From: Phocaeicola salanitronis DSM 18170
GTDB taxonomy: Bacteria > Bacteroidota > Bacteroidia > Bacteroidales > Bacteroidaceae
DNA length: 64,000 bases
Direction of reading: 5' to 3'
Assembly: GCF_000190575.1 (NCBI RefSeq)
Contig: NC_015164.1
Span: 744,001-808,000, forward strand
How positions within the stretch are numbered: the stretch's first letter is position 1; the number at the start of each line of letters is the position of its first letter. Position numbers and translations under genes: made by a program. Shown here in pieces: positions 20,539-32,607 of this stretch. The notes below the pieces were generated by a model, which worked only from the letters and a program-made list of their open reading frames with translations, was not told the origin of the DNA and did no database searches.

Positions 20539-21630
20539 TTATTTCAGCAATTCAGCCAACTTGGCTTCGATTGCATCCCCACGCAGATTGCGTGCGATAA
20601 TCGTACCTTCCTGGTCTACCAATACCGTAGCCGGAATGCTGCGTACGCCATACAGTTTAGCGCCTTCACAATCCCAGGCTTTCAAGTCTGACATTTGCGG
20701 CCATGTGATGTTCAAATCCTTGATGGCTTTCTTCCATGCTTCTGCGTCACGGTCGAGAGAAACGCCCACGATACCGAAGCCTTTTGACTGATATTTCTTA
20801 TATGCAGCAACTACATTCGGCATTTCCGCACGGCAGGGACCGCACCAGCTTGCCCAGAAGTCAATCAACGTATACTTGTTCTTTGCAATGAAATCAGATA
20901 ATTTCACGCTTTCACCTTCAGGAGTATTCATGGTGAAATCAATGAACTTCTGGCCTACCGCGGTTTTAGCTACCGTAGCCAAATGTTCTTTCAAAGCCAC
21001 CACGTCTTCATTTGAGGCATACGATGCAGGTATCTGGTCTACCAAAGGCTGAATGCGCTCGGTTTCAAATGCGCCATAATAGTTTGTCAACATCTGGACA
21101 CCCATCAAATTCGTAATGTTTGAAGAAATGGCATTGAACATCATTTCCATGCTCAAACTATCCTTTTCCTCCAATTGCTTTTCAGCCTCTTTACGCTGCT
21201 CTGCGCTCAACGAGTCGTTCTTACTCTGCTGGTACAAAGCAAACATTTCTTTATTCAAAGGAATAAATTCGTCCATGAATTTCTGATAAGCATCGTTACA
21301 TACTGTACCCGCCACTTTCGAAACTTCCTTATTCATGTTCAATGTAATGGTTCCCGGTTCAAGAAAGACCATCGTCTGCATCTCTCCCGGAGCGTATGTC
21401 ACATAACGGCTTACTGTAACCGTATCGGCATCTCCCGTAAACTGGAATGTTCCGCCTGTTACTACCGCAGAATCAACGCTGACCCAATTCCTGCCAACCA
21501 AATCCTGCAAATACACAACTTCACCGTCAGCTACACCTTCAATTGTACCCTTAATTGTATAACTCGGTTTGCTCTGACATGAAGCAAACGCCAGCATGCC
21601 AGCGGTTGCTATCCATAAAAATGTTTTCAT
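20539..21630 (-). CDS. TlpA-like thiol:disulfide oxidoreductase lipoprotein (DUF4369 + thioredoxin fold)
   Basis: 363 residues. The signal peptide ends with lipobox FASC, so it is a lipoprotein facing the periplasm. Residues about 25-115 form the beta-rich DUF4369 domain (YTIKGTIEGVADGEVVYLQDL). A helical linker precedes the C-terminal AhpC/TSA-type thioredoxin fold with active site WASWCGPCRAEMPN and the cis-Pro segment RSIPATVLVDQ. It would reduce periplasmic disulfides. It forms its own unit with an upstream -7 box and a downstream terminator. Confidence 0.92.
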   Translation of the reverse strand: MKTFLWIATAGMLAFASCQSKPSYTIKGTIEGVADGEVVYLQDLVGRNWVSVDSAVVTGGTFQFTGDADTVTVSRYVTYAPGEMQTMVFLEPGTITLNMNKEVSKVAGTVCNDAYQKFMDEFIPLNKEMFALYQQSKNDSLSAEQRKEAEKQLEEKDSLSMEMMFNAISSNITNLMGVQMLTNYYGAFETERIQPLVDQIPASYASNEDVVALKEHLATVAKTAVGQKFIDFTMNTPEGESVKLSDFIAKNKYTLIDFWASWCGPCRAEMPNVVAAYKKYQSKGFGIVGVSLDRDAEAWKKAIKDLNITWPQMSDLKAWDCEGAKLYGVRSIPATVLVDQEGTIIARNLRGDAIEAKLAELLK

Positions 21631-21708: not shown

Positions 21709-22413
21709 TCATTCATTGGTAGTTCTTGATAAAAACAATGTTAAAAACAGGCCTATCACATAACAAAGATGAAGGGCGGAAGGACTTAATCCCATAAACA
21801 CATCCAGTCCGGTATAGCGGAGCGAGGCAAAAAACTGTACCATAAAGAAAAGCGTAATGAAAAAGCCGGAGAAACGGACAAAGGCATACGACAATCCCCG
21901 TACCAAGTCCCGGTCGGTATGATAATAATCTACAGCATATCCGTACACCAAAGCCATGGTGCCCACTCCTACAGACACGAGAAAAGTACACCCCTCCGCC
22001 AACGGCGAATGTTCCAATCCTCCGGTAATGCTTCGTACCAGATTCCACGGTCCCCATGCCAGAAGCATGCATCCCGCCAAGAATATGCCTCCGACCATTA
22101 AACTCCAACAGAATGCCCGTTTTTCTTTTCCCGACAAACGGCTATGACGCATGAACAGACGCATGATGAGTGCCCCAAGCCCCGAATGCATCCATAACCC
22201 TATCCCAAAAGCCAAGATAAGCAAATGCCCCAGAAACGGAGCCTTCAGGAATCCGGGGACGGCATTCCTTAATTGCCAACGCAAACCTTCGGAGCTGAGC
22301 AGGCTTTGCACATCATGCCAGCCGTAAATGCTCCCTACCCATGATAAAAACGCGACAAGCAACGTGAGCAGGAAGAATACAATAGCCGGATGCAGAAAAC
22401 GTCTATTCATCAT
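21709..22413 (-). CDS. Short AbgT-like integral membrane protein
   Basis: 234 residues (or 233 from the second of two adjacent ATGs) with about six hydrophobic helices. The first part, HPAIVFFLLTLLVAFLSWV, then LLSSEGLRWQLRNAVPGF and LGHLLILAFGIGLWMHSGLG, resembles the N-terminal half of AbgT-family (p-aminobenzoyl-glutamate) transporters. Full AbgT proteins are about 500 residues, so this is either a family with half the fold or a related non-transporting protein. The start overlaps the response-regulator stop by up to 11 nt, which links it to that two-component operon. Function is not assigned. Confidence 0.5.
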   Translation of the reverse strand: MMNRRFLHPAIVFFLLTLLVAFLSWVGSIYGWHDVQSLLSSEGLRWQLRNAVPGFLKAPFLGHLLILAFGIGLWMHSGLGALIMRLFMRHSRLSGKEKRAFCWSLMVGGIFLAGCMLLAWGPWNLVRSITGGLEHSPLAEGCTFLVSVGVGTMALVYGYAVDYYHTDRDLVRGLSYAFVRFSGFFITLFFMVQFFASLRYTGLDVFMGLSPSALHLCYVIGLFLTLFLSRTTNE

Positions 22414-23125
22414 CAGGCTCTAAATTATCGATATCCAGGATGCGCAATTCGAAAGCCCGTGTGACCAGCCGGCAGGCGTTCACGCCGGTACGTTCGTCTG
22501 AACGGAACAAGCGGTTTATCAAATCATTCTGACGCTTCTCTATCGATTTCACGCCAAAAGGCATTCCTTTCAGGTTCGTAATCATTTCTTTCGTATAGCC
22601 CAGCGCCAAATGACGCAACAAACGCTCGTCATACTCATCAATATCGTAATCAATCAACGCTTCCTGACGGCGCTGCTCAGCAAGTACCGACTGCTTGAAA
22701 CGGTCTACAATTTTTTCTAATATCGGATAATTGAATACCAGTTTCTTTCCAGCCATTACCGCTTCTACATCGGTTGCGGTCAACAGTTCTCCCGTTTTCA
22801 GGATAATGCCATCCGCTCCGGCGTTCAATGCGTCTACCCAAAGCTTTTCGTTCAATACTTCTCCCGTAAAAATCAAGACTTTCAGTTCGGGATGTTCCTT
22901 ATGCAAACGGGCACAAATGGAAACCCCGATTGTAGTAGATCCTCCCAATCCTAAATCAAGCAAGACCATATCAGGGATATGCTGTTGCAGCAAAGCCCAA
23001 AACTCCGCCTCGGTCATGGCCGTACCTATCACTTCTGCATTGGGTATCTCATGACGGAATATCTCTTCCGTACCTTTTAATTCCAATTTTACATCTTCAA
23101 CGATGATAACCTTAAATTTTTCCAT
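22403..23125 (-). CDS. Response regulator with receiver and C-terminal HTH-like domain
   Basis: I choose ATG 23125 (MEKFKVIIVEDVK), because the upstream in-frame start at 23149 would overlap the kinase gene. The 240-residue product has a complete receiver: acidic pair Glu10-Asp11, phospho-acceptor Asp57 in LLDLGLGG, Thr in IFTGE and Lys in ILKTGE. The C-terminal part (about 170-235) with ALGYTKEMITNL and KSIEKRQNDLINRLF resembles a LuxR-like helix-turn-helix, as in DUF5932 proteins. It lies 10 nt after the double kinase and should be its phosphorylation target. DNA targets are unknown. Confidence 0.85.
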   Translation of the reverse strand: MEKFKVIIVEDVKLELKGTEEIFRHEIPNAEVIGTAMTEAEFWALLQQHIPDMVLLDLGLGGSTTIGVSICARLHKEHPELKVLIFTGEVLNEKLWVDALNAGADGIILKTGELLTATDVEAVMAGKKLVFNYPILEKIVDRFKQSVLAEQRRQEALIDYDIDEYDERLLRHLALGYTKEMITNLKGMPFGVKSIEKRQNDLINRLFRSDERTGVNACRLVTRAFELRILDIDNLEPDDE

Positions 23126-23135
23126 ATACTTATTT

Positions 23136-26100
23136 TTATGTGCCTGCATTTAATTGTTTCTTCTCCGGAATGGTAAACCATACCGTATATCCGCCTCCCG
23201 CTTCCGGACAAGCATTGATACGGCATCCACGTTTTCCGCCATATTCATCATGGTCGCGGATGATTTGTTTGCAAACTAAAAACTCCGTACCCACCAGCTC
23301 ATTCCGATTGCCTGTATACATACGTGCCAGCGAAGGATAAAACCATGCGTTCAATTCCTCCTGCGTATAAGTGCGCCGCATATCGGTAAAACAAAACCTC
23401 ACAAAACCATTATCCGGACCGGCAGATACGACCAGCTTGCCCGCTTCCGGATAACGGAGCGCCTCGTTTATCAGATTCTCAAAAAGGAAATCCAACAACA
23501 CCACATCGCCCGACATAACTAATCCGGAAGGGATGTGGGATTCCAGTTCAAGGGCGGACATGAATTTGCGGGACACCTTCCGGAAATAACGGCATAGCTT
23601 TTCTTCTACATATTCCGAACGGATTTCTGTACGGCGGAAGGTAATTTCTTCCAACTGGCGTGCCGCACAGGAACTGAGCAAGCCGAATATGTCCTTATAA
23701 TAATTCACCAGCTCGTCCACCGTCTGAAGCTGTTCGCGTTCGTCCGATTCAAGCCTTGCCTCATCCGTATTCAGACGGTCTATAATCTGCTTGATGCGGT
23801 TAGGGTAATAAACCGTTTCATGCTTAATGGTAGACAAGCAATTATCCAGCACCATGTTCTGCACATGCAGCAGGTTTTCTTCGTACAACGCCCGCCTTGC
23901 ATCGTCCTGCGCCAGCTCTATGTCATTGTATTTCTGACGTACCCGTACTACGGCGTTATACAATACAGCCGCCAGATAATCGACCACCAATTCTGAAAGC
24001 AACACATCTTCCTCGTTGATTTTCCGCCTTACAATCTGCAAGGCAAACACACCGGTAGAATGGGTTTCACCTCCTATCTGCACCCGGAGAGGCAAGGCAA
24101 TCCAGCCCGTGGCGTCGGCGCGCAAGAGCACCTGCTTATCAAAACAACGCTGCATCAAGGCGCGCACCTCGTCTATGTCATTCTCTTGCCTGAAATGCCA
24201 ACGCAAGACCGAGGTTTCTTCATCAAAGAATGCCATGCCCAAATTAGATACCGGGAACAATTCGTTCAACTCATCACCTAATTCCGTCAATAGTACATCC
24301 GGCATGATATCCCCTTCGTCGGTAAGGCGGACAGAAGCAAATATCGCCTGGTTAATCACAAACACCTGCTCCATGTTGTAGCGATAGCGCAAACGGTGGC
24401 GCCAATACAGCCAATAATAGCCTATCAGGCAGACAAATACCAGCAAGACGAGCAATACCAAAGCAATGAGCTTATTATTTGCAGACTGGCGCATCTGTAC
24501 ACAATATGCTTCCAGCGAGCGGTCCTTGCTTATTTGCTTATAAAGTGCCGTATACGCCTGATTGTTATAATAATAGACATAAAAATCCTTTACCGCCAAT
24601 GCCGCGACGGCAGCCTCGTTCCGCACATCCAAAAGAATATAATAATCGGTATCAAACTGCTTGTCCAGCCATGCTTGCTCTCCCATCCGGAAATCATCCT
24701 GATAAAGGCTCAGCAAAGGCGCGTCACATCCCGAATAGCGAAGGTAATGGATATTCAGATAATGCAGCACGCTATCGGCATATTCTAACGCATCGGCATA
24801 ATATCCGTTTACATTACATTCGTATACCAGATTGGCGTAATCATTCGCAATTGCCAATAAGCTGTCGTATGACACCACTTGTCGGGAACCGGTTGATACG
24901 GATGTTACAGGTTGCTTCCGGCAACCGCTCCCGCCCACTGCAAGCAACACGAGTCCGATATATACCAATGCCCTTTTTACGCCTTTCGGCAAGCGGAAAT
25001 AAAACCGGCTCCCTTTGCCCAAAGCACTCTGTATATCAAACCGGCACACATTGAACAAAGCGTTCGTTTTCCGGTATTTCTCTATAATGCCCTTGCAATT
25101 CATCAATCCGAAACCATGCCCTTTCTGGAGGCGGAGCGATTCCGCATCCGTAGCGGTATCCATCCCGATTGCTCCCGAATCATACACCTTTTCATCCAAT
25201 ATACGGCGGATATCCTTCTCTGAAAGCCCCATGCCGGTATCAGATACCGAAATCTCCACATAATCCGGCGTCTCACTCGCTTCCAGCTCGATGCGCCCTC
25301 CTTCCGGCGTATACTTACGGGCATTCTCAGCCAACGTATTAATCATGAATAACGTAAGTGCTCGGTCTGCCTTCACAATCGCCTCGGTTGGATGAACAAC
25401 GAAAACCTGTCGCTTCATCTCAAAGGAACGCTTCCCTTTAGCCACCATATCAAACAACTCGTTCAGCCCAAAGCTTTCGATATTCAGGCTCACCGTACCC
25501 TGACGCATTTTAATCCACAAAGCCAAAATATCATTGTATTCGTTAATCCGGGTAATCAGCTCGTCGATATAGGCATACTTTCCCTTTTTCACCTGCTCCT
25601 GACGGGCATAAGGCGCCGATTTTAATTTATGCACTTCATTTACAATCCGGTCGATGTATGGCAAGATTCCCGTCACAATCGAAAGGCACGCTTTCTTGAC
25701 CGCGTTCTCTTTCTTGTTCTCGACCAAATGTTGCCGGTGAATATACTGCTCTTTCTCTACCCTCCGCCGCTCGTCATCCAACGAAACCAGATTCGCCCCG
25801 TTCTCCAATGCCCATGCCAGATAAGGCGAAACCAATTGCAATAAAGCTTTCTCTTCCTTATGGAAAGGGCGGTTCAGTGCCATCCACATACGTCCAATGG
25901 CACCTTTCCCCGGAGAAACCAAGTCAAAGGCAAAACCGATTGTCTTCTCCGGAAGTTCAAAAGACAGGCCTTCAGGCAAAGCTCCCGTTTCTGCATCTTT
26001 CAGACGGATCTGCATGTCTACAGCCCCGAATATGCGGAGGAAATCGTCTTTCACCGTTTGCTGGATGGCACAGACCACCTCATCCATATCAGAAGCAGAA

Positions 26101-27557
26101 GAAGGTACGGAAGAAATGATTTTCCGGCACAATTCAAATACTTGCTTTAATGCTGACAGATAAATGGAATTACGCCTTTTCCATCTCCGATTAAAAAAGG
26201 CAAACAACAGAACCAATACGCACAGCCCGAGCACAACCAAGAAAAGCAAGGCACTGAGCTGTTTCGATTCGCGTTCCAACGCTATATAGCGGCTCTCTAA
26301 CAATTTGTCCTGACGGGTATAATCCAGCAAATCGAGATAAATATTGCGGTTATAGTCCGATTCCGGCTTCATGTCCATAGCCGAATACGTCCGGCTCAAT
26401 TGCTCGCGCAAACGCAGGATCCATTCCGGAACCGTCTTTATCCCGTCATCGGCAATCCATTTCAACTCTATCGAACGCCCTGCACCCGGAATGTAAGTAC
26501 GCAGACGGTCTAATGTATCCGTACAATGATAGTATTTCTCATGATGCAGGTTGACATAATGCAAGGCTGTATCCAAATTGGGCAACGCCTTTTCCGGGCA
26601 TCCTATGTAATTATAATAAGTAGCCAGCGTACGGTATGTCCCCGATATCTGATACCAATCATCATATTGCTTGAACAAGCCCAATGCTTTCCGCGCAAAC
26701 GAAAGCGGAAGGCTGTCCAAAGGCAGCCCCTTATCATTAATCATCCGCAGCATCCCCGGACTGTTTTCCGCCAGGACTTCCCGGTTTTGGCGGAAATTCA
26801 AGAGTTCCGCCAATGCCTGCAAGGCATTCGCTTCAAAATAGATGTACCCTCTTTCCCTGCTCACCATCAGGCAGCTGGTCAAATAGTTCAGTTCGCCAGC
26901 CAACAATTTTTCACGGGTCGGAGCCGCATACATATCTCCGGAACCGCGCATATACACATAATAAAGCCATTGTGCCGTATCACTCCGGATGGCATTTACA
27001 TCCACAGAATCAATCGCACGGAGCGACTCGTCATGCTGTTGCAGATAATAAAAGTAAATCCCAGATACGATATAGAATTCAGAAATGGCGTAACTCAAGC
27101 GTAACTTGAGCCGGGCGTCCGAAACCAGCTTTTCATCCTCGCGGATACGTTTCATCCGGCGGAAAGCACTGTTCCGATAGTCATAAAACTCTTTATTCAT
27201 TGCAGTCCGCTGGCATATTTTCATCATGCCGACATCTGCTATCAACCGCTCTATTTCGTTATCCCCTTCCCCCAGCGCTTGCCTGAAAAGGCGGGAAGCA
27301 CGCTCAAAGTCCATGCGCATAAAAGCGCAAAAGCCCAGATTATTCAAAGCCTCTGCACGCTGGCCGGAATTTCCTTTTGCCAAAAGAAAGGCTTCCTGTG
27401 CGGCTTTCTCAGAAGCAGCAAGATTCCGGTAACGCATGGAATACGCTTCCTGATTCAGCGAATCTGCCCGAAAATACGCCTCCATCCGCTCCGAACGGTT
27501 TCCGCATGCCGTCAATACCAGCATCAGAAACGCCAGACACCACCCTTCCTTACGCAC
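23136..27557 (-). CDS. Double sensor histidine-kinase-like protein (DUF5112/DUF5113 type)
   Basis: 1,473 residues starting at GTG 27557, which has AGGAG 12-16 nt upstream. Order: lipoprotein-type signal (LVLTAC), periplasmic TPR-like helices to about 430, membrane helix 434-457, GAF-like region, dimerisation-like helix near 630, HATPase domain with N-box Asn745, DTGMG box at Asp773 and KGHGFGL near 812, then a second hydrophobic stretch 862-878 ending GGSGC (Cys879), a second TPR-like periplasmic part, membrane helix about 1026-1047, GAF-like region, STIKHE with His1246, and a second ATPase-like domain with Asn1364. Module 1 lacks the His; module 2 lacks the DxGxG motif (it reads DMRRT at 1392). 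It is the first gene of a three-gene operon with the response regulator. Confidence 0.85.
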   Translation of the reverse strand: MRKEGWCLAFLMLVLTACGNRSERMEAYFRADSLNQEAYSMRYRNLAASEKAAQEAFLLAKGNSGQRAEALNNLGFCAFMRMDFERASRLFRQALGEGDNEIERLIADVGMMKICQRTAMNKEFYDYRNSAFRRMKRIREDEKLVSDARLKLRLSYAISEFYIVSGIYFYYLQQHDESLRAIDSVDVNAIRSDTAQWLYYVYMRGSGDMYAAPTREKLLAGELNYLTSCLMVSRERGYIYFEANALQALAELLNFRQNREVLAENSPGMLRMINDKGLPLDSLPLSFARKALGLFKQYDDWYQISGTYRTLATYYNYIGCPEKALPNLDTALHYVNLHHEKYYHCTDTLDRLRTYIPGAGRSIELKWIADDGIKTVPEWILRLREQLSRTYSAMDMKPESDYNRNIYLDLLDYTRQDKLLESRYIALERESKQLSALLFLVVLGLCVLVLLFAFFNRRWKRRNSIYLSALKQVFELCRKIISSVPSSASDMDEVVCAIQQTVKDDFLRIFGAVDMQIRLKDAETGALPEGLSFELPEKTIGFAFDLVSPGKGAIGRMWMALNRPFHKEEKALLQLVSPYLAWALENGANLVSLDDERRRVEKEQYIHRQHLVENKKENAVKKACLSIVTGILPYIDRIVNEVHKLKSAPYARQEQVKKGKYAYIDELITRINEYNDILALWIKMRQGTVSLNIESFGLNELFDMVAKGKRSFEMKRQVFVVHPTEAIVKADRALTLFMINTLAENARKYTPEGGRIELEASETPDYVEISVSDTGMGLSEKDIRRILDEKVYDSGAIGMDTATDAESLRLQKGHGFGLMNCKGIIEKYRKTNALFNVCRFDIQSALGKGSRFYFRLPKGVKRALVYIGLVLLAVGGSGCRKQPVTSVSTGSRQVVSYDSLLAIANDYANLVYECNVNGYYADALEYADSVLHYLNIHYLRYSGCDAPLLSLYQDDFRMGEQAWLDKQFDTDYYILLDVRNEAAVAALAVKDFYVYYYNNQAYTALYKQISKDRSLEAYCVQMRQSANNKLIALVLLVLLVFVCLIGYYWLYWRHRLRYRYNMEQVFVINQAIFASVRLTDEGDIMPDVLLTELGDELNELFPVSNLGMAFFDEETSVLRWHFRQENDIDEVRALMQRCFDKQVLLRADATGWIALPLRVQIGGETHSTGVFALQIVRRKINEEDVLLSELVVDYLAAVLYNAVVRVRQKYNDIELAQDDARRALYEENLLHVQNMVLDNCLSTIKHETVYYPNRIKQIIDRLNTDEARLESDEREQLQTVDELVNYYKDIFGLLSSCAARQLEEITFRRTEIRSEYVEEKLCRYFRKVSRKFMSALELESHIPSGLVMSGDVVLLDFLFENLINEALRYPEAGKLVVSAGPDNGFVRFCFTDMRRTYTQEELNAWFYPSLARMYTGNRNELVGTEFLVCKQIIRDHDEYGGKRGCRINACPEAGGGYTVWFTIPEKKQLNAGT

Positions 27558-29437: not shown

Positions 29438-30883
29438 TTACAAAATTGACTTTACAGTTTCCAGCATGCCTTTTTCCTGAATGCTGTCCAAATCAGCTTT
29501 TACGGCTGCGGTCAATCCCGGAATCTGATTCAAATCTTCGCCCCAAATAGACTGTGCCGCCAATACGCCTTCTGCAATCTTCTGCGTATCACCTGTAGCC
29601 CACAACTGTTTCAGCAAATCCATGATTTCCGGAGCGTCATTCGGAACGATTTCAGCACCGTCTTCGCGTACGCCGCCCTTATAATAAGTAATGATAGCGG
29701 CCAATCCCAATACCAAGCCTTTCGGAAGTTCACCCTTACGTTCCAGATATACCTTCAAGCCGGGCAGGTCACGGGTCTGGTATTTCGGGAATGAGTTCAG
29801 CATGATAGAAGTCACTTGATGGTCAACGAACGGATTGTTGAAGCGTTCCAATACATCATGAGCGAATTGTTCCAATTCAGCCTTCGGCAAATTCAAGGTT
29901 TCCATCAGTTCGTCAAACATCACCTTGTGGATGAACTTGCCGATAACCGGATGCTGGCAAGCATCGCGGACAATGTTCACTCCCGACAGATATGCAACCG
30001 GCGACAATACGGTATGCGGACCGTTCAGCAACGTAACTTTTCTTTCATGATACGGAGCTTCAGACGGAACGAACAATACATTCAGGCCTGCCTTGTCTGC
30101 AGGGAATTCTTTTGCCACTTCTTGCGGTGCCTCGATTACCCACAAATGGAAAATTTCTCCCTGAACGACCATGTTGTCGTCGTATTGAAGTTTTTCCTTA
30201 ATGGCATCAATTTCCTTGCGCGGGAATCCCGGAACGATACGGTCTACCAAAGTAGCATATACACCGCAGGCTTTTTCGAACCAATTCTTGAAATCCTCGC
30301 CCAAGTTCCACAAATCGATGTACTGATATATTGTTTCCTTCAACTTATGTCCGTTCAAGAAAATCAATTCGCACGGGAAAATAATCAAACCTTTTGACAT
30401 ATCACCGTTGAATGTCTTGAAACGATGATACAGCAATTGGGTCAGTTTGCCCGGATAAGAAGCAGCAGGAGCATCTTCTAATTTGCAAGCCGGGTCAAAA
30501 GCGATGCCGGCTTCCGTTGTGTTTGAAATGACAAAACGCATTTCCGGCTGCTCTGCCAATTTCATGAATTCATCATTCTGTGAATACGGATTCAAGGCAC
30601 GGCTTACTACATCAATCATTGTAAGGCTGTTCACCACTTGCCCTTTGTCAAGCCCTTGCAAATTAACATGGTACAGACAATCTTGTGCATTAAGCTTGTC
30701 TATCATACCGTTTGCCAAAGGCTGGACGATTACTACACTGCTGTTAAAATCGGTCTTCTGGTCCATGTTGTAGATAATCCAATCTACAAATGCGCGTAAG
30801 AAGTTACCTTCACCAAATTGAATGATTCTCTCAGGACGGATTGTCTTGTTTGCTGTTTCTTTGTTTAATGGTTTCATACTCAT
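29438..30883 (-). CDS. uxaB: Tagaturonate reductase (altronate oxidoreductase)
   Basis: 481 residues of the mannitol dehydrogenase/UxaB family. The N-terminal Rossmann segment IIQFGEGNFLRAFVDWII binds NADH. The C-terminal domain has the family Lys and His in KVTLLNGPHTVLSP. UxaB reduces D-tagaturonate to D-altronate in galacturonate breakdown. It is divergent from uxaC, which acts one step earlier, across a 317-nt region. altronate dehydratase and KDG genes are not in the window. Either Met1 or Met3 could be used as the start. Confidence 0.92.
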   Translation of the reverse strand: MSMKPLNKETANKTIRPERIIQFGEGNFLRAFVDWIIYNMDQKTDFNSSVVIVQPLANGMIDKLNAQDCLYHVNLQGLDKGQVVNSLTMIDVVSRALNPYSQNDEFMKLAEQPEMRFVISNTTEAGIAFDPACKLEDAPAASYPGKLTQLLYHRFKTFNGDMSKGLIIFPCELIFLNGHKLKETIYQYIDLWNLGEDFKNWFEKACGVYATLVDRIVPGFPRKEIDAIKEKLQYDDNMVVQGEIFHLWVIEAPQEVAKEFPADKAGLNVLFVPSEAPYHERKVTLLNGPHTVLSPVAYLSGVNIVRDACQHPVIGKFIHKVMFDELMETLNLPKAELEQFAHDVLERFNNPFVDHQVTSIMLNSFPKYQTRDLPGLKVYLERKGELPKGLVLGLAAIITYYKGGVREDGAEIVPNDAPEIMDLLKQLWATGDTQKIAEGVLAAQSIWGEDLNQIPGLTAAVKADLDSIQEKGMLETVKSIL

Positions 30884-31200
30884 GATATTTTTAAAGTTCT
30901 AATTGTTACTTTTCACCCATATCGCCTCCTTAAATTATATAAAAGGAGGAAATTCGTTTGCCATACTCAGTAAAAAACATTGATAAATCGAGACGTATCC
31001 GGACGAATCATGTGATTAATTTTACTAAATATTCGCTGCAAATATACGAAATATTTTGTTATTCCAAATAAAATTTTTACTTTCGTGTTCGATAACGAGA
31101 AATAAAACGATATTTGTGTTCTTCAACATAAAATATGCCTTATAGCTTCTTGTTTACATGAAAATACCTAACAAAAAACATAAACCAAAAAGAAAGCTTT
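30884..31200. promoter_or_regulatory. Divergent uxaB/uxaC regulatory region
   Basis: No gene lies in this AT-rich 317 nt. For uxaB, a minus-strand box TATATTTG (31039-31046) and a TTTG at 31065-31068, 18 nt away, form a good Bacteroides-type promoter. For uxaC, GATATTTG near 31110 is one base from TAnnTTTG. No GntR-type operator could be defined with confidence. Confidence 0.55.
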
Positions 31201-32607
31201 ATGAAAAAATTTATGGATGAAAACTTCCTGTTGAAAACAGAGACAGCACAGGAATTGTACCACAATCATGCAGCAAAAATGCCTATTATCGATTACCATT
31301 GCCACTTGATTCCGAAAATGGTAGCCGATGATTATCAATTCAAGTCAATCACAGAAATCTGGCTGGGCGGTGACCACTATAAATGGCGTGCTATGCGTAG
31401 CAACGGTGTAGACGAACGCTATTGTACCGGAAAAGACACCACAGATTGGGAAAAATTCGAGAAGTGGGCAGAAACAGTTCCTTACACATTCCGTAACCCC
31501 TTGTATCATTGGACTCACCTGGAACTGAAAACCGCTTTCGGTATCGATAAAATCCTGAACCCCTCTACCGCACGTGAAATATTCGAAGAATGTAATGCCA
31601 AATTGGCTACTCCTGAATACTCTGCACGCAACTTGATGCGCCGCTACCACGTAGAGACCGTATGTACGACAGACGACCCCGTAGATTCTTTGGAATATCA
31701 TATCGCAACACGCGAAAGCGGCTTCGAAATCAAGATGCTTCCGGCTTGGCGTCCCGATAAGGCCATGGCTGTAGAATCTGCAGCCAACTATCGTGCTTAC
31801 ATCGAAAAACTGGCGGAAGTGAGCGGCGTAAACATTTCTTCGTTCGATGACATGATTGACGCTTTGCGCAAACGTCACGCATTCTTTGCAGAACAAGGAT
31901 GTAGATTGTCAGACCACGGAATCGAAGAATTCTATGCTGAAGACTATACAGATGCTGAAATCCGTGCGATATTCAATAAAGTGTACGGCGGCACGGAATT
32001 GACGAAAGAAGAAATCCTGAAGTTCAAGTCGGCTATGTTGGTTATCTTTGCCGAAATGGACTGGGAAACCGGTTGGGCGCAACAATATCACTACGGAGCT
32101 ATCCGCGACAATAACAGCAAGATGTTCAAGTTATTGGGACCGGATACCGGTTTTGACTCTATCGGTGAATTCAACACAGCCAAATCAATGTCGAAATTCC
32201 TCGACCGCCTGAACTCTGAAGGCAAACTGACTAAAACCATCCTGTACAACCTGAATCCATGCGCGAATGAAGTAGTTGCTACCATGCTGGGCAACTTCCA
32301 GGACGGTTCGGTACCGGGCAAGATTCAGTTCGGTTCCGGCTGGTGGTTCCTCGATCAGAAAGACGGTATGGAAAAGCAGATGAACGCGCTTTCACTGCTG
32401 GGCTTGTTGAGCCGCTTTGTAGGTATGCTTACAGACTCACGTTCATTCCTGTCTTATCCGCGTCATGAATACTTCCGCCGCACATTATGTAATTTGTTAG
32501 GCAATGATGTTGAAAACGGAGAACTCCCGGAATCAGAAATGCCGCGCATCCAGCAAATGGTAGAAGATATTTGCTATAACAACGCAAAGAATTATTTCAA
32601 TTTCTAA
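31201..32607 (+). CDS. uxaC: Glucuronate/galacturonate isomerase
   Basis: 468 residues, the usual length of UxaC. It isomerises D-glucuronate to fructuronate and D-galacturonate to tagaturonate in the cytosol. The amidohydrolase-like metal motif is IIDYHCHLIPKMVADD near residue 28. Other family segments are VCTTDDPVDSLEYH and LTDSRSFLSYPRHEYFRR. The preceding sequence AAAGAAAGCTTT does not contain a clear Shine-Dalgarno. A strong terminator follows. Partner uxaB is divergent. Confidence 0.96.
   Translation: MKKFMDENFLLKTETAQELYHNHAAKMPIIDYHCHLIPKMVADDYQFKSITEIWLGGDHYKWRAMRSNGVDERYCTGKDTTDWEKFEKWAETVPYTFRNPLYHWTHLELKTAFGIDKILNPSTAREIFEECNAKLATPEYSARNLMRRYHVETVCTTDDPVDSLEYHIATRESGFEIKMLPAWRPDKAMAVESAANYRAYIEKLAEVSGVNISSFDDMIDALRKRHAFFAEQGCRLSDHGIEEFYAEDYTDAEIRAIFNKVYGGTELTKEEILKFKSAMLVIFAEMDWETGWAQQYHYGAIRDNNSKMFKLLGPDTGFDSIGEFNTAKSMSKFLDRLNSEGKLTKTILYNLNPCANEVVATMLGNFQDGSVPGKIQFGSGWWFLDQKDGMEKQMNALSLLGLLSRFVGMLTDSRSFLSYPRHEYFRRTLCNLLGNDVENGELPESEMPRIQQMVEDICYNNAKNYFNF

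Follow-up and report, generated by a model that had tools for sequence, protein, structure and literature searches.

Two kinase modules with complementary motifs in one protein

Can the catalytic cycle of a sensor histidine kinase be divided between two fused copies of a kinase module? The question is raised by a gene of Phocaeicola salanitronis DSM 18170 (order Bacteroidales, family Bacteroidaceae) that lies in the 64,000-nucleotide stretch of DNA analyzed here ("the window"; NC_015164.1, positions 744,001 to 808,000). Its 1473-residue product carries two kinase modules, each with a dimerization and acceptor domain (DHp1 and DHp2) followed by an ATP-binding-fold domain (CA1 and CA2). A first-pass annotation, made from the letters of the DNA, had proposed that ATP bound in module 1 is used to phosphorylate His1246 of module 2. 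The open reading frame (ORF), the strand, and the residues that it had singled out (G630, N745, D773, GHGFGL at 813-818, H1246, N1364, and D1392) were confirmed by reading the translation. Our analysis supports this proposal. The protein is most likely a two-component kinase built from two fused copies of a duplicated module that share one catalytic cycle between them, with phosphate predicted to pass from CA1 to His1246 and on to Asp65 of the response regulator encoded next to it; the phosphotransfer itself is what we infer from the sequences.

A database protein matches the 1473-residue ORF with 99% identity and 100% coverage, so the ORF is a real gene and not an accident of assembly. Over the Pfam cut-offs it matches DUF5112, DUF5113 (twice), HATPase_c, and nothing else; neither module matches the HisKA models of Pfam at an E value of ≤10, and Pfam finds no receiver domain in the protein. 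The genome has 36 HATPase_c matches, and only in this frame do two occur together. Source records name such proteins as DUF5113- or DUF5112-domain protein, ATP-binding protein, or histidine kinase. To judge from its domains, the ORF is a tandem-duplicated sensor histidine kinase. The first-pass annotation had also assumed a duplication, and comparison of the two modules bears this out (hhalign probability of 99.2%, E value of 1e-18).

Homologues were aligned in steps: 121 sequences (the query and its best 120 matches), then 241 including 120 Prevotella-type sequences, and then 352. The 352 distinct frames comprise 251 database proteins and 101 loci, those of Bacteroides fragilis and Phocaeicola vulgatus included; identical frames were dropped, and some frames are N-terminally truncated. 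N745 of module 1 is present in 352/352 frames, and D773, G775, and G777 are present in 351, the remaining frame having a gap there. On the module 2 side, the acceptor His1246 and the acidic Glu1247 occur in every frame. The reverse holds for the aligned counterparts. Position 629 of module 1 is Thr in 149 frames, Asn in 139, and other residues in the rest, and position 630 is Gly in 215 and Ser in 95, again with others. DxG at the G1 position of module 2 is found in 0/352 frames, as expected from the broken DxGxG box that had been noted at D1392. An N-box Asn had been read in both modules; this held for N745 but not for N1364, whose column has Asp in 134 frames, Lys in 73, and Asn in 63. No G2 motif had been seen in module 2, and indeed its glycines are missing, although a degenerate G2 is recognizable at 1423-1438 (GTEFLVCKQIIRDHDE).

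Column entropies (gaps left out) summarize the division: 0.00 at N745, D773, G775, G777, G815, G817, H1246, and E1247, versus 1.6 to 3.5 bits at the positions that align with these in the other module (T629/G630, N1364, D1392, R1394, and T1396). Mean pairwise identity is 0.60 for CA1, 0.56 for DHp2, 0.51 for DHp1, and, lowest of all, 0.375 for CA2. In neither module do an acceptor His with its acidic neighbor and the N, G1, and G2 motifs stand together; one half has the ATP site and lacks the acceptor, and the other half is the reverse. On these alignments, the conservation of the two modules is complementary, and the pattern of the split is far beyond chance.

The same split was found in 120 Prevotella-type homologues, in which the cytosolic domain ahead of DHp1 is missing as well and the motifs of CA2 vary and are in part deleted, and in 19/19 more distant full-length frames taken from further genera of the family (a 20th region fetched ended inside the kinase and so was left out of this count). 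Aligning homologues of both modules, the check that the first-pass annotation had recommended, thus upheld the split of functions across all 352 frames, and an intact module 2 ATP site, which it had named as fatal to its reading, occurs in none of them. One genome encodes two paralogous double kinases, each with its own regulator, and the split is the same in both. A DSGAG string in module 2 of another genome was rejected as a G1 motif; it sits in the N-box loop.

Position of the missing acceptor in module 1

Gly630 had been placed opposite His1246. We compared folds using AlphaFold2 models of residues 459 to 1473 (mean predicted local distance difference test [pLDDT] score of 89.2) and 1200 to 1473 (mean pLDDT of 86.8), in which both modules have DHp-CA kinase folds. 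Against the histidine kinase HK853, H260 falls on H1246 in 11/12 rows for module 2, with one row off by a residue. For module 1, four HK853 rows begin inside DHp1, and all of them agree in register, with H260 on T629; their root mean square deviations are 10 to 18 Å because the domains differ in orientation. The registers were read from the first and last residues of the matched ranges, in which internal gaps are invisible. Two hhalign runs set H1246 opposite T629 in one case and G630 in the other, and alignment with the single-module outgroup described below sets its H508-D509 opposite T629-G630. By fold and outgroup, Thr629 is thus the predicted acceptor equivalent and Gly630 the H+1 general-base position. 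A 3D alignment that moves Gly630 off the acceptor position was among the outcomes that the first-pass annotation had named as refuting; the shift is one of a single residue, and the substance of the earlier placement, that no acceptor His is present there, was retained.

A single-module kinase outside the family

A search for DUF5932, the output domain of the cognate regulator, over 247 genomes of the order returned one outsider (G101) besides three genomes of the family. In G101, the gene of a single-module kinase of 710 residues overlaps that of a regulator whose DUF5932 scores 26.2 bits (cut-off, 23.7) and whose receiver lies below the Pfam cut-off (21.3 versus 30.2). The same gene pair is present in G286, of the same family as G101 (another family of the order), so the outgroup comprises two genomes. 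The motifs of the outgroup kinase are all intact: His508, N-box N607, D637TGCG, and HGFGL from 666. It aligns with module 1 over 599 columns, sensor included (hhalign probability of 99.9%, E value of 2.4e-33), and with module 2 at 98.5%; its C-terminal HDDETRRGC stretch resembles that of module 2. Each module forms one clade with support of 100/100 in a tree built from 31 + 31 modules, and the inner branching of the two clades looks parallel by eye.

The outgroup kinase thus looks like the state before duplication, and in the simplest history suggested by these sequences such a kinase was duplicated and fused, after which complementary halves were lost. To our reading of the alignments, the outgroup is the strongest new evidence for duplication followed by complementary loss.

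The motif KHET[MIV]YY matched 8/393 genomes of the order, 6 from the family and 2 with chance reading frames, and a DHp2 query matched 3/198 genomes, all within the family. DUF5113 matches in other families (one over the cut-off) were rejected; the frames inspected there are TPR or other proteins, including an ordinary single TPR kinase. For stand-alone module 2 proteins, the best 120 of 245 module 2 matches were mapped, and most look truncated or partial. Three of them (P0189, P0196, and P0204) could be stand-alone module 2 proteins; a search with P0196 in 29 genomes gave matches in 24, among which a separate module 2 gene was not seen, and three short frames from that search lie near a contig end.

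Proposed division of the catalytic cycle

In the mechanism that we favor, DHp1 and DHp2 would together form a four-helix bundle, a heterodimer built into the protein. CA1 would move the γ-phosphate of ATP to His1246, which would hand it to Asp65 of the regulator, while the inert DHp1 and CA2 would serve as scaffold and offer surfaces for docking or control. A single asymmetric reaction could then be gated by two sensor regions in the periplasm (DUF5112-DUF5113 and the second DUF5113). The donor and acceptor of the phosphate might belong to the same chain, to the two partners of a dimer, or to two chains produced by cleavage.

Residue coupling gives a hint, and only that, of the DHp1-DHp2 pairing. 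In a mean-field analysis, 19 DHp1-DHp2 pairs were among the top 150, versus 10.7 expected, and the strongest of them lie at matching helix heights (median difference of 6 versus 14 for the top 10, P = 0.03; P = 0.07, 0.05, and 0.011 for the top 20, 30, and 50, respectively).

Several observations weigh against the proposed mechanism. The DHp1-DHp2 coupling is weak (P of 0.01 to 0.07, with relatedness uncontrolled), and the same height test is without signal for intra-domain pairs. The mechanism might lead one to expect couplings between CA1 and DHp2, but these show no enrichment (12 versus 19.4 expected in the top 150). The predicted template modeling score of the larger AlphaFold2 model is 0.68. 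CA2 of the window protein scores above the Pfam HATPase_c cut-off (30.5 versus 26.4 bits), and D1392 is retained in 217/352 frames. Histidines are also found in module 1, a condition under which the first-pass annotation would have given up its reading: one frame has His at 629, though followed by Asn rather than Glu or Asp, and in 15 a His occupies the variable position 632 beside P633. In helix 1 of DHp1, His607-Glu/Asp608 occurs in 101 frames, His640-Glu/Asp641 in 64, and His610 in 315. Finally, one locus extends 2.2 kb beyond the kinase without a regulator.

Module 2 could instead be a phosphotransferase like ChpT or Spo0B, fed by another receiver, with module 1 acting as an ATP-binding regulator rather than as its kinase. 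Its DHp histidine beside an ATP-binding-fold domain without nucleotide motifs is indeed what has been described for ChpT (PMC3433190). We nevertheless consider this quite unlikely: the ATP-site residues of module 1, kept in 351 to 352 of the 352 frames, need a substrate; the double kinase has no receiver of its own by Pfam, and the adjacent one belongs to the output regulator; and the single-module outgroup resembles an ordinary complete kinase. ChpT was absent among the 50 rows listed for each fold comparison, which excludes nothing.

It is very improbable that each module works alone in an unconventional manner, module 1 on another residue such as His607, His610, or His640 and module 2 by binding ATP without the classical motifs. 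The frequency of these histidines, two of them with acidic neighbors, and the fold kept in CA2 would suit such an arrangement, but none of the three is invariant as His1246 is, all lie well off the acceptor position by fold and outgroup alignment, and the CA2 motifs have decayed as described above. His607 and His640 could still be acceptors in the members that have them. Likewise very improbable, given the strict conservation of the ATP site, which speaks for catalysis, is a DivL-like pseudokinase role for module 1, in which ATP would serve only as a switch and a different cellular kinase would phosphorylate His1246.

Junction between the halves

The two halves meet at a short hydrophobic stretch that follows a basic turn. 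Its uncharged run (median of 14) and hydropathy (1.73) match those of the N-terminal signal (16 and 1.83) and not those of the ordinary transmembrane (TM) segments TM1 (20 and 3.11) and TM3 (23 and 2.70), so that in length and hydropathy the junction is signal peptide-like by sequence. Cys879 ends the junction in 108/121 close homologues (Bacteroides/Phocaeicola type). Prevotella-type junctions end in AxA in 71/120 cases, versus 12/120 and 6/120 at the two ordinary TM segments. Across all frames, a lipobox or AxA in loose form was found at 255/346 junctions and 282/310 true N termini; four control scans of two TM segments gave 12/346, 34/346, 31/352, and 19/352. A strict lipobox was found in close homologues at 31/121 junctions, 17/118 N termini, 0/121 TM1 segments, and 9/121 TM3 segments. 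The junction of the window protein itself reads GSGC, a poor lipobox.

The product is possibly cut into two chains at this point. We tentatively suggest, at somewhat less than even confidence, that the protein is a kinase polyprotein whose internal signal peptide would be cut by lipoprotein signal peptidase in the Bacteroides/Phocaeicola type and by signal peptidase I in the Prevotella type. This would yield chains at 1:1 and an obligatory heterodimeric kinase, one chain giving and the other receiving phosphate, each with a periplasmic sensor of its own. As an alternative, the junction may be the fossil of a gene fusion and today a mere membrane crossing. The FbcH polyprotein of Bradyrhizobium is reportedly cleaved by signal peptidase, although our literature search found nothing on this.

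Operon, regulator, and distribution

The features of the double kinase and of its operon are listed in Table 1. A regulator with receiver and DUF5932 domains lies directly downstream on the same strand in 102/105 loci; of the other three, two end in or just after the kinase, and the third is the locus without a regulator mentioned above. The receiver residues E18, D19, D65, T95, and K118 are present in 103/103 regulators (those of the 102 loci and the window, picked by BLAST alone).

Table 1. Features of the double sensor kinase and its operon in the window (res, residues)
Feature	Coordinates	Strand	Details or basis
Double sensor kinase gene	23136..27557	-	1473 aa, GTG start
N-terminal lipoprotein-type signal (res 1-18, ..LTAC)	27504..27557	-	Motif scan
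DUF5112 domain (res 31-296), presumed periplasmic sensor	26670..27467	-	Pfam
First DUF5113 (res 298-458), including TM1 at about 433-456	26184..26666	-	Pfam
Module 1 Thr629-Gly630, lacking acceptor His and acidic neighbor	25668..25673	-	Alignment, fold comparison, outgroup
Module 1 ATP-binding domain CA1 (res 700-860); N745, D773-TGMG, and GHGFGL 813-818 intact	24978..25460	-	
Junction (res 861-879), short hydrophobic signal peptide-like segment, last residue Cys879	24921..24977	-	
Second DUF5113 (about res 897-1053), including TM3 at about 1029-1050	24399..24869	-	
Module 2 dimerization and acceptor domain DHp2 (res 1210-1305)	23643..23930	-	
Predicted phosphoacceptor His1246	23820..23822	-	352/352 frames; register to HK853 H260
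Module 2 degenerate ATP-binding-fold domain CA2 (res 1315-1465)	23163..23615	-	
D1392-M-R1394, DxGxG box without glycines	23376..23384	-	DxG here in 0/352 frames
Cognate response regulator (receiver and DUF5932), 14-nt overlap with kinase gene, acceptor Asp65	22403..23149	-	Pfam
Small membrane protein, same operon, partial AbgT similarity	21709..22413	-	After regulator in 90/105 loci

DUF5113 was found in 313/399 sampled genomes of the family, representing 25/30 genera; named carriers include Bacteroides, Phocaeicola, and Prevotella. Across the order, DUF5113 scored above its cut-off in 7/393 genomes, 6 of which belong to the family. Family genomes lacking DUF5113 number 86; DUF5932 was sought in 20 of these, and 0/20 had it.

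Further along the same strand, a TlpA-like thioredoxin with DUF4369 (20539-21630) lies downstream in 16/105 loci. Near the kinase, the window also holds genes at 29438-32607 that we take to be uxaB/uxaC-like genes of uronate catabolism, and presumed kdgK- and eda-like genes are found on the same strand upstream of the kinase in 6/105 loci. A functional link of the kinase to uronate catabolism is possible.

Significance and comparison with known systems

The double kinase would be a natural, conserved case of complementation within one gene, of a kind otherwise described for a kinase split between two genes. With its presumed catalytic and acceptor halves separately mutable, the direction of transfer, its asymmetry, and gating by two signals become directly testable. 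The outgroup suggests that this protein is also a clean example of how two copies of a module, once duplicated within a chain, shed complementary functions. Every relative examined shares the division of labor; these relatives come from a large group of bacteria of the gut and mouth, and DUF5113 appears to be the marker domain of the double kinase. In open-licence PMC titles and abstracts, we found no paper describing this DUF5112-DUF5113 double kinase.

With ordinary sensor kinases of the HK853-RR468 type, the double kinase shares the DHp and CA folds, the register of the acceptor His, and an overlapping regulator gene; it differs in that each module lacks half of the motifs, and the two together hold one set. 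The kinases of G101 and G286, with their DUF5932 regulators, are homologous in sensor, kinase, and regulator and alike in gene order and overlap, but in them a single module combines His508 with a complete ATP site. The CheA domain set consists of P1 (Hpt), P3, P4, and P5. This set is not matched by the double kinase, with its Pfam hits to DUF5112, DUF5113, and HATPase_c and its DHp fold.

Relative to ChpT (PMC3433190) and Spo0B, module 2 is similar in its DHp histidine and CA-like domain without nucleotide motifs; it differs in being fused to a catalytic module, membrane-bound, and without an upstream receiver in the protein. Module 1, a kinase fold without acceptor His in 351/352 frames, resembles pseudo-histidine kinases of the DivL type (PMC12189002); DivL regulates a separate complete kinase, whereas the presumed acceptor of module 1 is fused to it. 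Of CheA3 and CheA4 of Rhodobacter sphaeroides (PMC3591291), neither protein autophosphorylates alone, and a mixture of the two labels CheA3. There, too, ATP-using and phosphoacceptor parts are complementary, and the halves of the double kinase would likewise be inactive alone. CheA3 and CheA4 are two separate proteins with the CheA domains P1, P3, and P4, whereas the double kinase is one open frame in all 352 cases analyzed and a membrane sensor with a DHp-type acceptor in a duplicated kinase. By this analogy, the CheA3/CheA4 split kinase is the closest counterpart of the double kinase, which would be a variant of the split-kinase idea and a member of none of the CheA3/CheA4, ChpT, and DivL families.

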